Positions 6,232-62,453 of a stretch of DNA of 64,000 bases are shown here, one piece after another. Origin of the DNA: Pseudomonas fluorescens (GTDB lineage Bacteria > Pseudomonadota > Gammaproteobacteria > Pseudomonadales > Pseudomonadaceae); assembly GCF_902497625.1 (NCBI RefSeq), contig NZ_CABVGX010000015.1:1-64000 (forward strand), written 5' to 3'. The notes beneath the pieces were generated by a model. The model was not told where the DNA came from and ran no database searches. It worked only from the letters and a program-made list of their open reading frames with translations. Position numbers and translations under genes: made by a program. How positions within the stretch are numbered: the stretch's first letter is position 1; each line of letters starts with the position of its first letter.

Positions 6232-7068
6232 TCAGGGCAGAACTGTCCACAGTGCGAAGCCGGCGTACCAGAGCACTGCCGCGCGCAATAGCAATTCCCA
6301 AAGGTTGTCGAGGCTGCTGATGCCATGCGGACCTACCATTGGAGCGGGAATTTCCCCAGCCGCCAGACCGACCTTCCCGATCAATTGAGCGGCGCTGATG
6401 TTCCAGTTCAGCACTTCGTGCAGCATCACCCGGCTAACCGCCACAAAGTTGCCCACCAGTGCGAAACTGGCGGCCAACAGACGCACCGGCACCCAGTCGA
6501 ACGCATGCCGTAACTGCCCCGCACGTTCCACTACCGCCGGGTTTTGCCCATGTTCTTCGGCGAGCGCCAGCAGTCGATAGCTCAACGCCGCGACCGGCCC
6601 CAGTACGAAGTACCAGAAAATCACGGCAAAAAAGCTTTGATAACCCTCCCACAGCAGATGCCCCTGAACAGCCTCCAGTAATTGCTCACCACTGTCGGCA
6701 TCGATCTTCAGGTCGCGCTCGGCCACGTGCGCGGCAGCTTGCAGGTCTTCACGGCGCCAGGCATCGCGAAACGGTCCGAGGCCGGCCAGCAGATCGCCGC
6801 GACCGAGACTGTAAATCACCACCAGCAAATGCACCGGCAATGCCAGAAGCCCATACGCCACCGGCTCCAGCACTACCAGCACCAGCCCCAGCAGCGCCAC
6901 CGGCAGCAATACCACAATGGTCAGGATCAGCCAGGGACGCGGCGCCATGCGCGGGCTGGACTCAAGCTTATGCAGCTCGCGCACCCAACCACCATCACGT
7001 TGAATCCGATGGCGCAGGGCCGAGAATTTCTCGACCCAGACCGCCAGCAGCAACACCAGAAAACTCAT
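6232..7068 (-). CDS. ampE: AmpE regulatory signalling protein, inner membrane
   Basis: A 278-residue integral membrane protein matching AmpE, the partner of AmpD in peptidoglycan-recycling-linked beta-lactamase regulation. Hydrophobic segments are visible at the N terminus, at about residues 45-90 (two), at about 145-165, at about 200-215 and at the C terminus. Its ATG overlaps the ampD stop (ATGA), so the two are translationally coupled. The biochemical role of AmpE is not well established; the assignment rests on sequence resemblance and the ampD-ampE pairing. Confidence 0.88.
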   Translation of the reverse strand: MSFLVLLLAVWVEKFSALRHRIQRDGGWVRELHKLESSPRMAPRPWLILTIVVLLPVALLGLVLVVLEPVAYGLLALPVHLLVVIYSLGRGDLLAGLGPFRDAWRREDLQAAAHVAERDLKIDADSGEQLLEAVQGHLLWEGYQSFFAVIFWYFVLGPVAALSYRLLALAEEHGQNPAVVERAGQLRHAFDWVPVRLLAASFALVGNFVAVSRVMLHEVLNWNISAAQLIGKVGLAAGEIPAPMVGPHGISSLDNLWELLLRAAVLWYAGFALWTVLP

Positions 7069-53475: not shown

Positions 53476-53873
53476 GGGGCCGTTTAGGATTCGACGCCGG
53501 TCGCGAAACTTTAGGTGCATGCCGAGTTGGTAACAGAACTCGTAAATCCACTGTTGCAACTACTTATAGTTGCCAATGACGAAAACTACGGCCAGGAAAT
53601 GTCCATCGCTGCGTAAGCAGCCTTAGACCCTGAGCTTCTGGTACCTTCGGGTCCAGCAATCATTAGGGGATGTCTGTAAACCCGAAATGATTGTCATATA
53701 GAACAGAATCGCCGTGCAGTACGTTGTGGACGAAGCGGCTAAAACTTACACAACTCGCCCAAAGCACCCTGCCCTTCGGGTCGCTGAGGGTTAACTTAAT
53801 AGAAACGGCTACGCATGTAGTACCGACAGCGGAGTACTGGCGGACGGGGGTTCAAATCCCCCCGGCTCCACCA
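53476..53873 (+). ncRNA. ssrA: Transfer-messenger RNA (tmRNA)
   Basis: A 398-nt tmRNA for ribosome rescue with SmpB. The tRNA-like ends are clear: 5' GGGGCC-GTTTAGGATTCGACG and 3' GGGTTCAAATCCCCCCGGCTCCACCA with encoded CCA. The mRNA-like part starts at resume codon GCC near 53571 and encodes the degradation tag ANDENYGQEMSIAA before TAA. The 3' end is also the island attachment site. A weak TTGACG (53423) may be the -35 box of its promoter. Confidence 0.96.
53851..53873 (+). other. Attachment site: 3' end of ssrA
   Basis: The last 23 bp of ssrA (T-arm 3' strand and acceptor) form the left junction of the island; the tyrosine integrase lies immediately downstream, oriented away from it. The insertion has regenerated a full ssrA. 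A second copy of this sequence, expected at the other end of the island, is not in the window. Confidence 0.65.
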
Positions 53874-53916
53874 AATACCAGTTTCCACATGTTCTCACAT
53901 GATCGGAAACACCCCA

Positions 53917-53943
53917 AGAAGCCCGCCCCGTGCGGGCTTTCTT
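53917..53943 (+). terminator. Terminator downstream of ssrA
   Basis: AAGCCCGC and GCGGGCTT form an 8-bp stem around CCCGT, followed by TCTTG. It terminates ssrA and lies between it and the integrase gene. Confidence 0.8.
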
Positions 53944-54038
53944 GTGTCTGGACATCCACAAATGAACCCACACAGCATTGCGCCCCGTGTATGCCTGCTT
54001 GTATGCTCGCCTTAAATTTGAAACTGAGGCATACACGC

Positions 54039-55277
54039 ATGAAGCGTTCGGAGATTAAGCGCCGTCCGATGGCAGACACCACCCTAGCCAGCCTTGAGCC
54101 AGAGGCCAGCACCTACCGAGAGCTAGATGGCGCCGGGCTCTATCTGCGAGTGAAGCCCACCGGCCAGAAATCCTGGGAGCTGCGTTACAAAAAAGCCGAT
54201 GGCAAATGGTCATGGCTAGGCTTGGGAGGCTACGGTAAGGGTAGCCACCAGTTGACCGGCGAGCAGGCGCGCCAGAAGGCAGCAGAGTTACGCGACGGCA
54301 CAATGAAAGATGGCAGCATGCTCGCCACCCAGCGCGCCCAAAAGGCAGCAGAACGTGAGGCAGCCAACAATACTTTCGAGCATCTGGCGCGCGAGTGGTA
54401 CGCCAACAAGCGCAAAGGCTGGAGTGCAGGCACTGCAACCCGAACCATCGGCGCCCTGCAACTGCATGTGTTTCCGGTCTTCGGCAAGCGGCCTTATCAG
54501 GGTGTTCTGCCAATGGAGTGGATGGAGTTCCTGCGCGGTATGGAGCAAACCGGGATTGTCGAGCAGACCAGCCGAGTACGTGGCATGTGCCGGGAAATTT
54601 ACGACCTGGCACGCGTCACTGGTCGTGCCACTCACAATCCGCTGGAAGGATTGCACAAGTTCCTGCTGACCAAGCCAGCCGAAAACTATGCCCATGTTTC
54701 CATCGACGAACTGCCGCCTCTTTTGCGAGCTATCAGAGCGTACCCGAGCGCGGCAGACGTCCGTATCGGTCTACACCTGCTGTCGATGCTCGCCTGTCGT
54801 CCGTCTGAGCTGCGAGAAGCCCGGTGGGCTGAGTTCGATCTAGAGGGCGGCCTGTGGACAGTTCCCGCCGAACGAATGAAGCGTCGTCGTGAACATGTGG
54901 TTCCCCTGCCGCGCCAAGCCATCGAACTACTGCACGCTCTGCACAACCTCACCGGCGCTTACCTGCTGCTATTTCCTGGCCGTAGCGACACCACGAAACC
55001 GCGCTCCAATACCGTTTTCCTAATGGCTTTACGTCGCCTTGGCTACGAAGGTCGGCAGACCGGCCACGGATTCCGCCATATCGCCAGCACGATCCTCAAC
55101 GAACACGGCTTTGACGAGAACCATATCGAGGCCCAGCTATCGCACGTCAAAGACGGGATTGCCGGGGTGTACAACAAAGCTCAATACCTGGCTCAACGCA
55201 CGACCATGATGCAGTGGTATGCCGATCACTTAGACAGACTATCTACAGGCAATGTGGTGGAGTTCAAGCGCGCATGA
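54039..55277 (+). CDS. P4-type tyrosine integrase of the ssrA island
   Basis: A 412-residue site-specific recombinase. The N-terminal DUF4102-like arm-binding domain (ELDGAGLYLRVKPTGQKSWELRYKK) is followed by a core-binding domain (about 110-205) and the catalytic domain with Arg254 (CRPSELRE), His343-x-x-Arg346 (HGFRH), His369 and nucleophile Tyr378. All five catalytic residues are present, so it is probably active. ATG 54039 follows a GAGG ribosome site; the in-frame sequence upstream is ssrA. The gene reads away from the att site. Confidence 0.95.
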   Translation: MKRSEIKRRPMADTTLASLEPEASTYRELDGAGLYLRVKPTGQKSWELRYKKADGKWSWLGLGGYGKGSHQLTGEQARQKAAELRDGTMKDGSMLATQRAQKAAEREAANNTFEHLAREWYANKRKGWSAGTATRTIGALQLHVFPVFGKRPYQGVLPMEWMEFLRGMEQTGIVEQTSRVRGMCREIYDLARVTGRATHNPLEGLHKFLLTKPAENYAHVSIDELPPLLRAIRAYPSAADVRIGLHLLSMLACRPSELREARWAEFDLEGGLWTVPAERMKRRREHVVPLPRQAIELLHALHNLTGAYLLLFPGRSDTTKPRSNTVFLMALRRLGYEGRQTGHGFRHIASTILNEHGFDENHIEAQLSHVKDGIAGVYNKAQYLAQRTTMMQWYADHLDRLSTGNVVEFKRA

Positions 55278-57195: not shown

Positions 57196-57474
57196 ATGAT
57201 CGAAACATCCTGCGAAAAAGCGGTAACGCCGAAGGCTTGCCCGAAGAAAGCCACCGACCTGTTTTATGTGACCCATCCGAAAGAGCCCAAAGCATTGCTA
57301 GGACCATTCTTGACCGAAGCCGATGCTGAGTGCGGGCGCGTAGTTATGCGTAGCACTGATGCTTTGGTGACGGCCTGCCTCGTTGATTCGCAGGACGATC
57401 TGACCTACTGGCACGCCGTGAAAAATGGCCGGATGTGTCGGGCCTTTGCTGGCGCTGCCAAGGGGACGATATGA
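57196..57474 (+). CDS. Small unknown island protein
   Basis: A 92-residue protein with three or four cysteines (SCEKAVTPKACPKK near the start, TACLVD, RMCRAF). No family is recognised. Its stop overlaps the start of the primase-like gene (ATGA), so it is co-translated with the replication module. Confidence 0.6.
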   Translation: MIETSCEKAVTPKACPKKATDLFYVTHPKEPKALLGPFLTEADAECGRVVMRSTDALVTACLVDSQDDLTYWHAVKNGRMCRAFAGAAKGTI

Positions 57475-58349
57475 CAGACTCGACTATCCTTTTCAGTGAC
57501 GCGCTCCAGTCAGTGTTTGGGCAACTCGACTTCCTACCCGTGCCAGATGGAACTATTCATAGGTTTCACGTCCCTTACGACAAACCCGGAACATTCAACG
57601 GCTGGTATGTGCTGTATCTGGACGGCATCGCTTCGGGAGCATTCGGCAGTTGGAAAACGAATGGTTCCAGCGCCTGGAGCAGTCGAACACCCGTCAATTA
57701 TCGTGAAGCCGAACATGTGCGCCAGCGCATCGAGCAGGCCCGCCATCAACGCGAGGCCGAGCAACGCCAACGCCAACTAAACGCGGCAACCCTTGCTCAA
57801 CGCTGGTGGCGTGACGGACAACGCGCCGACCCTGACCACGCCTATTTAATCGCTAAGGGTGTTCGCTCCCACAGCCTGCGCCAGCGCAATGACGAATTAC
57901 TGGTGCCGCTGTACTCCGATGGCGTGCTAGTCAACCTGCAACGGATCGCCTCGGACGGCAGCAAGCGCTTCTTGGCTGGTGGCCGGGTAAAGGGCGCCTA
58001 TTCACCGATGGGCCATATCACGCTAGGCAACCCACTTTGTATCTGCGAGGGCTGGGCCACGGGTGCAACGCTTCACGAAAGCGGCCACACCGTCGCCTGT
58101 GCAATGAATGCCGGTAACTTAAAACCGGTGGCGCTGGCGCTTAGGGCCGAATATCACACTACCGAAATCATCATCACGGGCGACGACGACCGTCAGACCG
58201 AGGGCAATCCCGGCCGCACCGCCGCCAATGCCGCCGCCATTGCCGTGGGTGGACTAGTAGCGTTTCCCGACTGGCCGAACAGTGCGCCCGACACCCTGAC
58301 CGACTTCAACGACCTGTATCGCTGGGAAGCAGACCGTGCCAACGAGTAA
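57471..58349 (+). CDS. Toprim-domain primase-like protein
   Basis: A 292-residue replication protein. An N-terminal domain of unknown type and a charged coil (about 80-110) precede a Toprim domain: CEGWATGATL (Glu about 193), then TGDDDR (Asp238-240). This resembles the primase part of P4-like alpha proteins. I chose ATG 57471, overlapping the previous stop. It is overlapped by the helicase gene (14 bp). Confidence 0.85.
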   Translation: MTDSTILFSDALQSVFGQLDFLPVPDGTIHRFHVPYDKPGTFNGWYVLYLDGIASGAFGSWKTNGSSAWSSRTPVNYREAEHVRQRIEQARHQREAEQRQRQLNAATLAQRWWRDGQRADPDHAYLIAKGVRSHSLRQRNDELLVPLYSDGVLVNLQRIASDGSKRFLAGGRVKGAYSPMGHITLGNPLCICEGWATGATLHESGHTVACAMNAGNLKPVALALRAEYHTTEIIITGDDDRQTEGNPGRTAANAAAIAVGGLVAFPDWPNSAPDTLTDFNDLYRWEADRANE

Positions 58350-60186
58350 TGTAATTAGTCTGACAAGTGATCTAGGCGGCACGGCTGGGGCAACTGACGG
58401 GGCCAATACGGCGACAACTACCGCATGCCAAGCGGCAAAGGTTTCGGCCAAGTTTCTGGCGTGTGAAACTCCGAAAATCGCACCTGAACGCCCTTGCTGG
58501 TGCGTGTACAAACACTGGGTCACGAATGAGAAAGGCCGCAAACTGCGCCCCGGCGTCTGGTTCCACGGGCACAGGGAGAGCAAGGAAACGGGTGAATCCT
58601 TGCCATTTGATGAATGGTTGTGCGGCCCACTACATGTAGACGCAGTGACCCGCAACGAAGGCCAAGATGGCGACTATGGCCAACTACTGCGCTTTCGCAA
58701 CTCTGATAGCCGCTGGCTGACCTGGGCAATGCCTAACGAGCTGTTGGCGGGCAAGCCTGACTCGATACTTAGTGCGTTGCTGAACATGGGGCTAGAGGTC
58801 GATTACAAGCGCCGGGCGCAGGTGCCCCAGTACATCGCGAGCCAGCACCCCACGCGCCGGGTTATTGCTGCCACGGCTACCGGTTGGCATACACCCGAGC
58901 TGTTCATTATGCCCCGGCAGAACATCGGCACCGGTGACGCCATATTTCAGAGCGAGGCCGCCAATGGTGACGACTACCGGCACGCCGGAACACTGGCAGG
59001 ATGGCAGTCGAGCATTGGTTCGCGATGCGAGGGCAATCCGCTGTTGCTACTGAGCGTCTGCGCCTCACTGGCCGGCGCGCTGTTGTTTCATGTTCAGCGC
59101 CAAGGTGGCGGGTTTCACATCGTGGGCGATTCCAGCACCGGCAAGAGTTCCGCCATTCTGGCTGGTGCCTCGGTATGGGGGCACGGGGAAGACTTCAAAC
59201 GCACTTGGCGCGCTACCGGCAACGGCCTGGAAGGAATCGCCAGCCAACGCAATGACACGCTGCTGGCGCTGGACGAAATTGGTGAGGCAGACCCGCGTGA
59301 GATTGGTGCAGTGATCTATGCCATGGCCAACGGCACCGGCAAGGCCAGAGCAAGCCGCAACGGCGCCGCGAAGGCTGCCAAACGCTGGCGCGTGATGCTG
59401 TTTTCGTCGGGCGAGCTGGGGCTGTCCGCACTGATGGCCGAAGGGGGTAAGCGCAGCCGGGCCGGTCAGGAAATTCGCCTGTTGGATATCGCCGCTCGCC
59501 GCACTTATGGCGCCTGGGACAACCTGCACGGATTGGCCGGTGGCCGGGAGTTTTCCGACGCCATCCAGCGCGCCAGCGTGACGGACTACGGCCATGCCGG
59601 GCCTGAGTTCATCCGCCAGCTCTTGGCGTCTGGTGACGCGGACAAGTTGCCTGGATGGCTGGCTTCCATGGGCGCCAAGTTCCCCAGCGCCAACGGGCAA
59701 GAAGGCCGGGCCGCTGAACGCTTTGCCCTGGTCGCCTTGGCGGGGGAGCTGGCTATCAAGTTCGGCGTTCTGAGCATTCCACCCGGCACCGTACAGATCG
59801 CCATGTTGGAGCTGTTCGACGTGTGGCGCGCTGGCCGTGGTACGGGCCCAAGCGAAGATCGCCAGATCCTCAAGAGCATTGCCGACTTCATTGCCCGTCA
59901 CGGTGACACCCGCTTTTCAAGTGCCGACGATCCACACGGTGAAGCACGGGATCGAGCGGGCTATTGGGAGGCCTCACCGAGTGGGCGCCTGTACCTGTTC
60001 AACCGTCCGGGACTGGAGGAAGCCGCCAAGGGTTACGACATGGGCCGCGTGGTACAGGCGCTTGATTCAGTCGGGGCTATCACCAAGCGGGAGCTCGGAA
60101 AAAACCAGCACAAAAAATGCCTACCGGACAAGACAAAGCCACGTCTGTACTGGATAGACCCTTCGAAGTTGGAACCGGAAACCTAA
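58336..60186 (+). CDS. DUF927-domain helicase-like ATPase
   Basis: A 616-residue protein, DUF927 family, with Walker A GDSSTGKSS (264-272) and Walker B LLALDEIGE (309-317). It starts at GTG 58336 inside the Toprim gene, so both are coupled. The Toprim-plus-DUF927 pair looks like a split version of the primase-helicase of satellite phages and would act at an origin, perhaps the repeats just downstream. Confidence 0.85.
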   Translation: MPTSNVISLTSDLGGTAGATDGANTATTTACQAAKVSAKFLACETPKIAPERPCWCVYKHWVTNEKGRKLRPGVWFHGHRESKETGESLPFDEWLCGPLHVDAVTRNEGQDGDYGQLLRFRNSDSRWLTWAMPNELLAGKPDSILSALLNMGLEVDYKRRAQVPQYIASQHPTRRVIAATATGWHTPELFIMPRQNIGTGDAIFQSEAANGDDYRHAGTLAGWQSSIGSRCEGNPLLLLSVCASLAGALLFHVQRQGGGFHIVGDSSTGKSSAILAGASVWGHGEDFKRTWRATGNGLEGIASQRNDTLLALDEIGEADPREIGAVIYAMANGTGKARASRNGAAKAAKRWRVMLFSSGELGLSALMAEGGKRSRAGQEIRLLDIAARRTYGAWDNLHGLAGGREFSDAIQRASVTDYGHAGPEFIRQLLASGDADKLPGWLASMGAKFPSANGQEGRAAERFALVALAGELAIKFGVLSIPPGTVQIAMLELFDVWRAGRGTGPSEDRQILKSIADFIARHGDTRFSSADDPHGEARDRAGYWEASPSGRLYLFNRPGLEEAAKGYDMGRVVQALDSVGAITKRELGKNQHKKCLPDKTKPRLYWIDPSKLEPET

Positions 60187-60205
60187 ACGCATTTTGCTTT
60201 TTCGA

Positions 60206-60398
60206 GGGGGAACTGAGGGAACCAAGGGAACCGCCTAGGGCCACGTTGCTTCCAGTAGTTCCCCCGCCTCAAAACGCATAGGGAACCAAGGGAACCGGGT
60301 CAGTATCAATTCCCCCAGTTCCCCCGGCCAAAAAAGCGAAGGGAACCGCTACAGCCCGCGCCATTACTGGCTGTCCCCTCGGTTACCCCAGTTCCCCC
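60206..60398. repeat. GGGAACC / GTTCCCCC motif cluster (iteron-like)
   Basis: GGGAACC or GGGGAAC occurs at 60206, 60217, 60226, 60281, 60290 and 60341, and GTTCCCCC or ATTCCCCC on the same strand at 60258, 60309, 60318 and 60391. This makes at least ten motif copies in both orientations within about 190 bp directly after the helicase gene. Clustered short motifs like this are typical of initiator-binding iterons. Confidence 0.7.
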
Positions 60399-60513
60399 AG
60401 CAAAAATCAAAAGGGCGCTGAAGCGGGTAAATTGTTGCAGCTTGGCGGACACCATGAGTTATCTAACGCGCCCAAACCGGCACCAGCACTGCAACCGAGC
60501 GCCATGCCCGGTA

Positions 60514-60557
60514 AAGCTGGAGCCGGAGATCTAAACGCACTTTGGTTTTTCTACGGG
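60514..60557 (+). pseudogene. Duplicated remnant of the helicase gene's 3' end
   Basis: These 44 bp repeat the end of the DUF927 gene and the bases after it (60166-60208): AAG CTG GAG CCG GAG then ATC and TAA (KLEPEI*) against KLEPET* in the intact gene, followed by CTAAACGCAnTTTnGnTTTTTC in both. About 35 of 43 positions agree. Only the tail is present, suggesting a former duplicate or a recombination scar. Confidence 0.65.
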
Positions 60558-60663
60558 TGCCAGGGTTGAGCGGTTGGCGATTTACCCCCACTGTCCCCGG
60601 ACACCTACAGTTCACGCCGCTGGCGGCTATCGGGCCATGCGCCCAAGAGGCATTGCTGCATGC

Positions 60664-60698
60664 CAACGAACAACGAACAACGAACAACGAACAACGAA
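60664..60698 (+). repeat. CAACGAA heptamer array, five copies
   Basis: Exactly five copies of CAACGAA in tandem, immediately followed by CAGATCGTTAAC at the start of direct repeat A. AT-richer tandem heptamers beside larger repeats are a common origin-type arrangement. Confidence 0.85.
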
Positions 60699-60703
60699 CA
60701 GAT

Positions 60704-60816
60704 CGTTAACGTTAACCAGCTACAAAGGCGTCGGATTTTCGGAAAAAGGCCCGTATTTGCGGGTCAAGAATGGCCTAATCGTATGCTGCTAGGCTGTTAA
60801 CATTGGTTAACGTGGC
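60704..60816 (+). repeat. Direct repeat A (~113 bp)
   Basis: It begins with the palindrome GTTAACGTTAAC, passes through TTTCGG(A)n, a CCCG-TATTTG-CGGG hairpin, TCAAGAATGGCC and TATGCTGCTAGG, and ends GTTAAC-n-GTTAACGTGG. Closest partner is B. Confidence 0.82.
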
Positions 60817-60836
60817 AAAAACGCAAAGTGAACAAA

Positions 60837-60950
60837 TTGTTAAGGTTAACCGGTTACAAACGCTTTGAAATTTCGGAAAAAAGCCCGTATTTTCGGGTCA
60901 AGAATGGCCTTGCCGTATGCTGCTAGGTTGTTAAGGATTGTTAAGGTGGC
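60837..60950 (+). repeat. Direct repeat B (~114 bp)
   Basis: Same order as A: TTGTTAAGGTTAACC, ATTTCGGAAAAAAG, CCCG-TATTTT-CGGG, TCAAGAATGGCC, TATGCTGCTAGG and a closing TTGTTAAGG-n-TTGTTAAGGTGG. The central 50 bp are almost identical to A. Confidence 0.82.
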
Positions 60951-61004
60951 GAACAGAGGATTGTGTTGCCATCCGACCAGCTAATTAAAATGACAGGTAA
61001 CAAA

Positions 61005-61117
61005 TGGCTAATATTAGCCACCCACAAACGCGTCAAAATTTCGGCCTAAAGCCCCGGTTTTGTTGGCCGAAAGGACCTGGCCCTATGCCCCCAAGTTGTT
61101 AACATTTGCAAACGTGG
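61005..61117 (+). repeat. Direct repeat C (~113 bp, diverged)
   Basis: Opens with a perfect 16-bp palindrome TGGCTAATATTAGCCA where A has GTTAACGTTAAC, then CACAAACGCGTC-AAAATTTCGG, a longer stem TTTCGGCC...GGCCGAAA (61039-61072) and closes GTTGTTAAC-n-AAACGTGG. It keeps the architecture with much sequence change, which argues for selection on structure or on protein-binding boxes. Confidence 0.7.
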
Positions 61118-61228
61118 TTTTTTCCATCAGGGAACGGGAGGCCAGGGCGCGGCAATCGTTTCGGTTCAGATGCTCAATGAGGATTCCAACCGCCGTCGGT
61201 ACGTTACGCGTCACGTTCCGTTGCAGAT

Positions 61229-61348
61229 GCGAAATTGCACTCCACTTGACCACCTGATTGCATCGGTACTGACCACTCGTTTGCATCGCACTTGACCAGG
61301 CGTTTGCAATGGATCTGACCACCGATTCCATCGGAATTTACCAGCACG
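61229..61348 (+). repeat. Left inverted end of the cassette (five 23-bp units)
   Basis: Units start near 61236, 61258, 61281, 61304 and 61326, each with a TTGCA- or TTCCA-type box followed about 8 bp later by TGACCA or TTACCA. The innermost unit is the most degenerate. Likely transposase-binding sites. Confidence 0.75.
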
Positions 61349-61461
61349 TTTAGTCAACATGATCGGCGGAGAGCTGCCCATTGCTACCGGTGGCGACAGG
61401 CAAAATCGACCCACAGCTGCCGTTCCAAGTTGGCTATAACTCACTACAGCCCCTTACCTGC

Positions 61462-62025
61462 TCAGAGCATCCAATGCTCCTCGACCTGGTAGAGCGGCTT
61501 GCCGACCATCAGCAACTTGATGACATCTATGTGCGCCACGTAATCAGCCTCAGAGAACTTAGTCCATCGCGGATTACGCTTTTGCGCGGCGATGAATGCT
61601 GAGCGCGCCTTACCCATCGCGGCGCGGTTCTTCGATAGAAAACTGCGCAACCCTTTGAACAGTTCAGAGTCCAGCGGCGGATGGAGCAAGGCAACGCTCG
61701 GGTGTTGGTGGTGGCCACCGCAGACGAGCACCGTTTTCAAGTAAATGTTGACTAGCTTCTGGGCACGGCCGAAGGAGAAATCGGTCACACCCACGCGTGC
61801 AGCCTCGGCTTCGATCTTATTCATAAAACTCATCTGCCATTTATCGACGTTCGGGCCAATTTGCTCTGGCCCGGTTACCTGGCCTAGGCCGCTTGCCTCT
61901 ATCAGCTCGAAAGCCAAGGAATTACCCCCGCCGGCCAGGCCGCGGCCATACGCGGCGGCGGCGCACCACTTGGCATAGAGGTGTTTGTGTTTTTCGATTG
62001 GATACAGGGTTGCAGGTGTAGTCAT
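61462..62025 (-). CDS. Uncharacterised protein carried by the cassette
   Basis: A 187-residue protein starting MTTPATLYPIEKHKHLYAKW. No signal peptide or membrane helix. A stretch FSFGRAQKLVNIYLKTVLVCGGHHQHPSVALLHPPLD (about residues 84-120) looks like the conserved core of a small helical family I cannot name; a basic C-terminal half (KNRAAMGKARSAFIAAQKRNPRW) follows. It is the only gene inside the cassette, next to a restriction-modification locus, so a defence or maintenance role is possible but unproven. Confidence 0.65.
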   Translation of the reverse strand: MTTPATLYPIEKHKHLYAKWCAAAAYGRGLAGGGNSLAFELIEASGLGQVTGPEQIGPNVDKWQMSFMNKIEAEAARVGVTDFSFGRAQKLVNIYLKTVLVCGGHHQHPSVALLHPPLDSELFKGLRSFLSKNRAAMGKARSAFIAAQKRNPRWTKFSEADYVAHIDVIKLLMVGKPLYQVEEHWML

Positions 62026-62134
62026 GGATTTTTACTCGCGAATATTTGAGAGGCCCCTTTTTTGGCGGCCTATGTGCTTCATATACCTTGAAGCGTCAGC
62101 TCTTGGCCGTTCTCTGCCGATCAAGGTTACAACG

Positions 62135-62232
62135 CGTGTTGGTCAAATCCGATGCAATCGCTGGTCAGAACGAATGCAAGTGACTGGTCAGGTCGAATGC
62201 AAACGGGTGGTCAAGTGGAGCGCAATTTCGCA
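62135..62232 (-). repeat. Right inverted end of the cassette (four 23-bp units)
   Basis: Read on the minus strand from 62232 it starts TGCGAAATTGCGCTCCACTT and carries four units of TTGCATTCG..CTGACCA type, matching the left end for its first 27 bp with two differences. It lies upstream of the cassette gene and may overlap its promoter. Confidence 0.75.
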
Positions 62233-62453
62233 CTATCTGTTGTTAGAGCTGTTTTTTACTGCATTGACAAGGATGTAACGACTTGCAGCCGAAACTCCGC
62301 TCAGTCGGTTCAGCGTGGCGTTGGATAATTGGGTGTAAGAAATCATGTATTCAGCCATGGAAGCCCTTCACCATTGCCGCATAATGCATCCAAATTTTTT
62401 CATCAGCGTGCGGGTGCCAATATCAGCACCCAGCACCAAAGGGATTTCCACTC
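62233..62453. other. Non-coding stretch before hsdM
   Basis: About 220 bp with no credible gene. It should contain the hsdM promoter; TTGGATAATTGGG near 62322 and TTTTTTCATCAG near 62395 are AT-rich but no clear -35/-10 pair is called. An AAAGGGA ribosome site precedes the hsdM ATG. Confidence 0.5.

Follow-up and report, generated by a model that had tools for sequence, protein, structure and literature searches.

Three diverged direct repeats and a separate candidate iteron origin in an ssrA-associated DUF927 island of Pseudomonas fluorescens

In the sections of the published accounts drawn on here, the iteron origin of SaPI Rep immediately follows the helicase gene (PMC7581432), Gram-negative PICIs carry two sets of iterons after pri/rep with an AT-rich region between them (PMC6092414), and the origin is placed downstream of pri (PMC10111431). 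The stretch of Pseudomonas fluorescens DNA analysed here (64,000 nucleotides; "the window") contains an island beside ssrA, in which tmRNA (53476-53873), an integrase gene (53691-55277), a Rha-type regulator gene, a Toprim gene and a DUF927 gene are followed by three direct repeats, A, B and C. The features of the relevant part are listed below.

57435-58349, plus strand: Toprim primase-like gene (Pfam Toprim_3, 2.3e-10)
58336-60186, plus strand: DUF927 helicase gene, presumed initiator (Pfam PF06048, 3.9e-82)
60208-60396, no strand assigned: iteron array, candidate origin, with nine GGGAAC words (six on the plus strand, three on the minus strand)
60507-60563, plus strand: 3'-terminal remnant of another DUF927 gene (57 bases at 84% to L003/L106)
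60690-60822, plus strand: repeat A (alignment and profile matches)
60824-60956, plus strand: repeat B, abutting A in a 134-bp unit (alignment and profile matches)
60992-61124, plus strand: repeat C, the most diverged of the window's three (alignment and profile matches)
61125-61230, plus strand: flank in common with the G411 copy of the repeat (L105, about 6310-6406), apparently a broken coding stretch (alignment)

The iteron array beside the DUF927 helicase gene

The DUF927 protein matches PDB entries 8tch ("Pathogenicity island protein", 5.2e-19) and 5dgk ("Active helicase", 3.7e-13), which we take to be SaPI Rep and Cch. Its match to NCBIfam SCCmet_Cch1 (8.1e-18, 64 bits) is far under that family's cut-off of 700. 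Directly 3' of its gene, a 189-base stretch has GGGAAC nine times; in 1000 shuffles of 60184-60410 the word occurs 0.37 times on average and never more than 4 times. When each shuffle was instead allowed its own most frequent six-letter word, that word averaged 3.47 copies and reached nine at least once in 300 shuffles, and the window's own over-represented 7-mer has a p of only 0.015.

Over-represented 7-mers (p<0.05, 100 shuffles) are present in the first 350 bases 3' of the DUF927 stop at 43 of 48 loci, or 41 of 46 when the duplicates L106 and L107 are removed; the control counts are 0/50 inside the gene, 1/48 at +1500 and 2/46 at +3000. These loci are the best DUF927 matches; weaker ones, mostly frames of ~970 residues, were left out, as were L005 and L012, which are too short, and L019. 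The five loci without such a 7-mer are L006, L007 and L008, which are nearly identical, L108 and L142. Iteron words at other loci are GGCAAC, GGGACA or GTGACA, and the commonest classes among the 43 loci are GGGAAC (25) and GGCAAC (10). Over these 35 loci together, core identity subtracted from C-terminal identity of DUF927 gives a larger value for pairs of one class than for pairs of different classes (p=0.0005 in a label permutation that ignores relatedness). This association is a hint only, because pairs of one class and pairs of different classes have nearly equal absolute C-terminal identity (0.68 and 0.69, respectively), and the former have the lower core identity (0.75 vs 0.81). By analogy with the systems described above, replication of the island most likely starts at the array at 60208-60396, the candidate origin. 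Among the matches listed in the open-licence literature (titles and openings of abstracts), nothing was found on the iteron array of Pseudomonas DUF927 islands or on repeats A to C.

Repeats A to C and their relatives

The three repeats align in register and without gaps over 133 columns, with start-to-start spacings of 134 and 168, and A adjoins B, each forming a unit of 134 bp. Identity over these columns is 79% for A-B, 62% for A-C and 62% for B-C, whereas A and shuffled C are 25% identical on average and 38% at most. The repeats reported in the preliminary description are thus real, and the stretch is gene-free as it was said to be, in that none of the ORFs listed there was judged a credible gene. 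A short tandem repeat of CAACGAA is found at 60660-60696, immediately before repeat A; an open frame of 46 codons begins at it, with AAGAGG in front.

The remnant of a second DUF927 gene at 60507-60563 also resembles the end of the window's own DUF927 gene (82% over 44 bases), and the flank at 61125-61230 gives a tblastn match of 67% over 27 residues (E 4.7e-7). Together with the XRE context of the G295 copy, described below, this second DUF927 end and the flank shared with G411 fit a drifting, recombining stretch. An insertion-like element at 61228-62232 has long inverted ends that match imperfectly (72 nt at 78%, 116 nt at 76%), is made of TTGCA...TTGACCA-type repeats, and contains on its minus strand a 187-aa ORF that has no match in Pfam, PHROGs or NCBIfam. 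A type I restriction-modification set, identified as HsdM, HsdS and HsdR by inspection of the translations (L156:2455-9439), follows the repeats.

A sequence-only profile made from A, B and C (R1) was run on 398 Pseudomonas genomes. Besides the window's own three copies, it gave matches below 0.01 on contig C34 of G411 (9e-18) and contig C53 of G295 (1.2e-11), each genome having one copy (L105 and L104, respectively). The next match was at 0.017, and matches from there up were taken as noise; at an E threshold of 0.5, 62 of the 398 genomes have a match. The five copies are 64-82% identical over 115 positions, L104 having an insertion of 21 bases and L105 one extra base. Profiles R2 and R3, made from A to C plus the G411 and G295 copies, found no further copy below 0.01 in 298 family genomes (only G000 and G411 were below 0.01), none at E 0.01 among the relatives of G411 (144 genomes) or those of G295 (115 genomes), and no additional copy at E 1 in the window's own genome; the four genome samples overlap and their counts are not additive. 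Weak copies may be missed, because only the best first-look candidates of each genome were scored (about 8 in the sample of 398, 11 in that of 298, 23 in that of 144 and 29 in that of 115).

Rfam has no match at the repeats, its sole match being sR30 at 62349-62393, far under the cut-off. Blastn of phage and plasmid records with the repeats gave no match beyond one short Rhizobium stretch, which lies inside a glycoside hydrolase gene and was taken as chance. These results agree with the earlier statement that no named element of this type is known. Exact-pattern scans of viral contigs for the repeat returned zero matches. Blastn matched two of 194 genomes, the window's own and G023; the match in G023, which adjoins a gltX-like gene, was likewise taken as chance.

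Several known kinds of sequence were considered and rejected. The core consensus of integron attC sites is GTTRRRY, which GTTAAC does not fit. The four tRNA or tmRNA genes found by ARAGORN are all elsewhere, which argues against tRNA or tmRNA fragments, and the insertion-like element begins after C, so the repeats are not its ends.

Origin, RNA, coding and binding-site readings of the repeats

The preliminary description placed an origin or incompatibility locus in the repeats, next to the primase/helicase pair. An origin on this side of the pair is supported, but at 60208-60396 and not in the repeats themselves. The repeats do begin ~500 bp beyond the end of the DUF927 gene, and GTTAAC is frequent in them: the 435 bases of 60690-61124 contain it six times, where shuffled sequence has it 0.26 times on average and 4 times at most. 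Their distribution is that of a rare segment, however: among 52 sources, 51 of them with DUF927, the element turned up nowhere but in the window, G295 and G411, and the 13-kb G411 locus has no DUF927 match, which leaves two of the 51 DUF927 sources with the element and 49 in which it was not found, truncated and duplicate ones included. L003/L106 and L010/L107 are pairs that, judged by length, each represent one contig, and L005, L012, L019 and L011 are not clear absences, because the first three end soon after the gene and L011 ends ~2 kb past it. In the sequence compared, the repeats are absent from islands whose DUF927 genes are 80-86% identical to the window's. They were not found in L106 or L107 (DUF927 84% identical), where the sequence extends about 10 kb and 7 kb, respectively, beyond the gene. 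Where DUF927 is 80-84% identical, homology between these islands and the window continues past the stop and ends between 60379 and 60415, before the repeats.

The sister island in G295 bears on the same question. Its integrase is 92% identical to the window's (residues 54-528) and its Toprim protein 82%, and the products of ORF97, ORF92 and ORF87 are 87%, 79% and 76% identical; the Rha gene has no match in the G295 stretches compared. In its DUF927 protein, 61 of the first 75 residues match those of the window's, and then 220 of 541, about 41%. The G295 iterons are GTGGCAAC-like and differ from the window's. The G295 element is located 2.2 kb 3' of its own DUF927 gene and 3' of an XRE regulator gene (L104:2652-3296) whose product is weakly RstR-like. 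The element is common to both sister islands, and therefore is not tied to one initiator, its G295 copy accompanying a different initiator body and different iterons. An initiator-iteron module may have been exchanged. An apparent recombination breakpoint is visible within the DUF927 gene near codon 75 (window 58336-58556 / L104). The sister islands adjoin different genes, tmRNA in the window (53476-53873) and tRNA-Arg(ccg) in G295 (L159:2100-2176), and the sequences beyond the ends of these two genes are very similar. With a stronger candidate directly 3' of the DUF927 gene, repeats A to C are probably not the replication origin, and it is highly improbable that they form the island's origin or incompatibility locus.

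The preliminary description also held that one architecture was kept while the sequence changed. This could not be confirmed, and the hairpin layout is mostly peculiar to A and B. The CCCG/CGGG stem has its outer two C-G pairs in four of the five copies and its inner C-G pair in only two, and its innermost pair is variable. C has the 8-bp hairpin ascribed to it, but in a different register. The TTTCGG box is TTTTGG and TTCCGG in the two relatives, and the TATGC box is TGTGT and CGTGC.

Each repeat could be a small structured RNA on the plus strand, with the set forming tandem small-RNA genes or copy-control RNAs. For the five copies RNAalifold gives a consensus of 31 pairs, 11 of which have two-sided changes. 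On the plus strand, column shuffles reach its energy in 1.3% of cases and its two-sided pairs in 0/300; with four copies the values are 0.7% and 2.0%, and on the minus strand 8.3% and 4.0%. These covariation tests are based on five sequences only. Repeat A, alone among the copies, folds clearly better than its shuffles (z -2.6). With the insertion columns removed, however, the consensus is a different one with four two-sided pairs. Nulls that spread the substitutions over all columns attain the energy of this second fold in 2% of cases and its pair count in 50%; under the stricter null, limited to the variable columns, the figures are 15.7% and 41%. The other copies are not significantly better than shuffles (z 0.2 for B, -0.9 for C, 0.8 for L104 and 0.9 for L105), and the palindrome and hairpin originally drawn have no excess covariation (score reached in 89/500 shuffles). 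Promoter- and terminator-like sites at the repeats are at chance level. The evidence on a structured RNA is divided, covariation being positive in one test and not under the stricter null, and this reading is given a low probability.

Another doubtful reading sees in each repeat a decayed copy of a very small gene, 32-46 codons long, that stops at the conserved TGTTAA. ATG-started frames in one register with a common stop are found in A (60660-60800), C (61004-61102) and L104, the 21-base insertion of L104 keeps the frame, and this frame has the top BLOSUM62 score in six of ten pairs. None of the ten pairs of the five copies has an excess of third-position changes: the third-position differences never exceed the second-position ones by more than 1, the counts at positions 1, 2 and 3 being, for example, 4, 7 and 8 for A-B and 7, 13 and 14 for A-L105. 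First positions differ less in some pairs. Invariant columns are spread evenly over the codon positions (16/36, 16/37 and 15/37). The frame is interrupted by a TGA in B and by the one-base insertion in L105, and another frame is about equally open in A, B and L104. Tblastn with the peptides gave no convincing match (lowest E for a foreign sequence 7e-4; 17 foreign loci inspected), and Pfam, PHROGs and NCBIfam have no match.

Four GTTAAC-like boxes can be made out in all five copies, though the fourth only with difficulty. Invariant columns make up 15/24 in the boxes vs 34/91 in the rest (Fisher p=0.037), a weak, post hoc comparison in that the boxes were picked after seeing A. In B, three of the four boxes have parallel C-to-G changes. 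On this weak conservation, the repeats may be protein-binding modules.

Nature of the repeats and comparison with known systems

With moderate confidence, A to C are regarded as three diverged copies of a rare non-coding segment of ~115-133 bp from the right-hand part of this island lineage, the origin being elsewhere. Tandem duplication would have multiplied the segment in a stretch where debris of a second island is also found, and the copies would then have drifted. Any former function would most likely have been that of a DNA site for a protein recognising GTTAAC-like half sites. The presence of three adjacent copies and one in the sister island could nevertheless reflect selection rather than drift. 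There is a small chance that A to C are working copies of an undescribed element, either a structured RNA or a GTTAAC-based protein-binding array, which accompanies this island lineage independently of the exchangeable initiator-origin module and regulates maintenance of the island.

Tandemly duplicated, diverged intergenic segments occur in genomic islands. Repeats A to C are like these in their contiguous copies, their drift and the surrounding debris, and unlike them in that no named family was matched and only two single relatives were found. Unless the repeats are functional, little follows from them; the useful result is that the probable origin has moved to the iteron array. At most of the DUF927 islands examined such an array comes directly after the helicase gene, with words that vary by island. 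The two sister islands have integrase and primase-like genes in common but not the helicase body or the iterons, so the specificity of initiator for iteron can be tested by natural swaps.

The closest described systems resemble the array at 60208-60396 and not repeats A to C. Like the SaPI Rep and SCCmec Cch systems, as far as the consulted sections of PMC7581432 describe them, the island has a DUF927-type helicase whose gene is followed at once by multiple short repeats, both direct and inverted. It differs from them in its iteron words and host genus, and its primase-like gene is a separate Toprim gene. The array is also like the origins of Gram-negative PICIs, as described in the part of PMC6092414 drawn on here, in position and in the iterons themselves, which in both cases are found within the island and 3' of the initiator gene.
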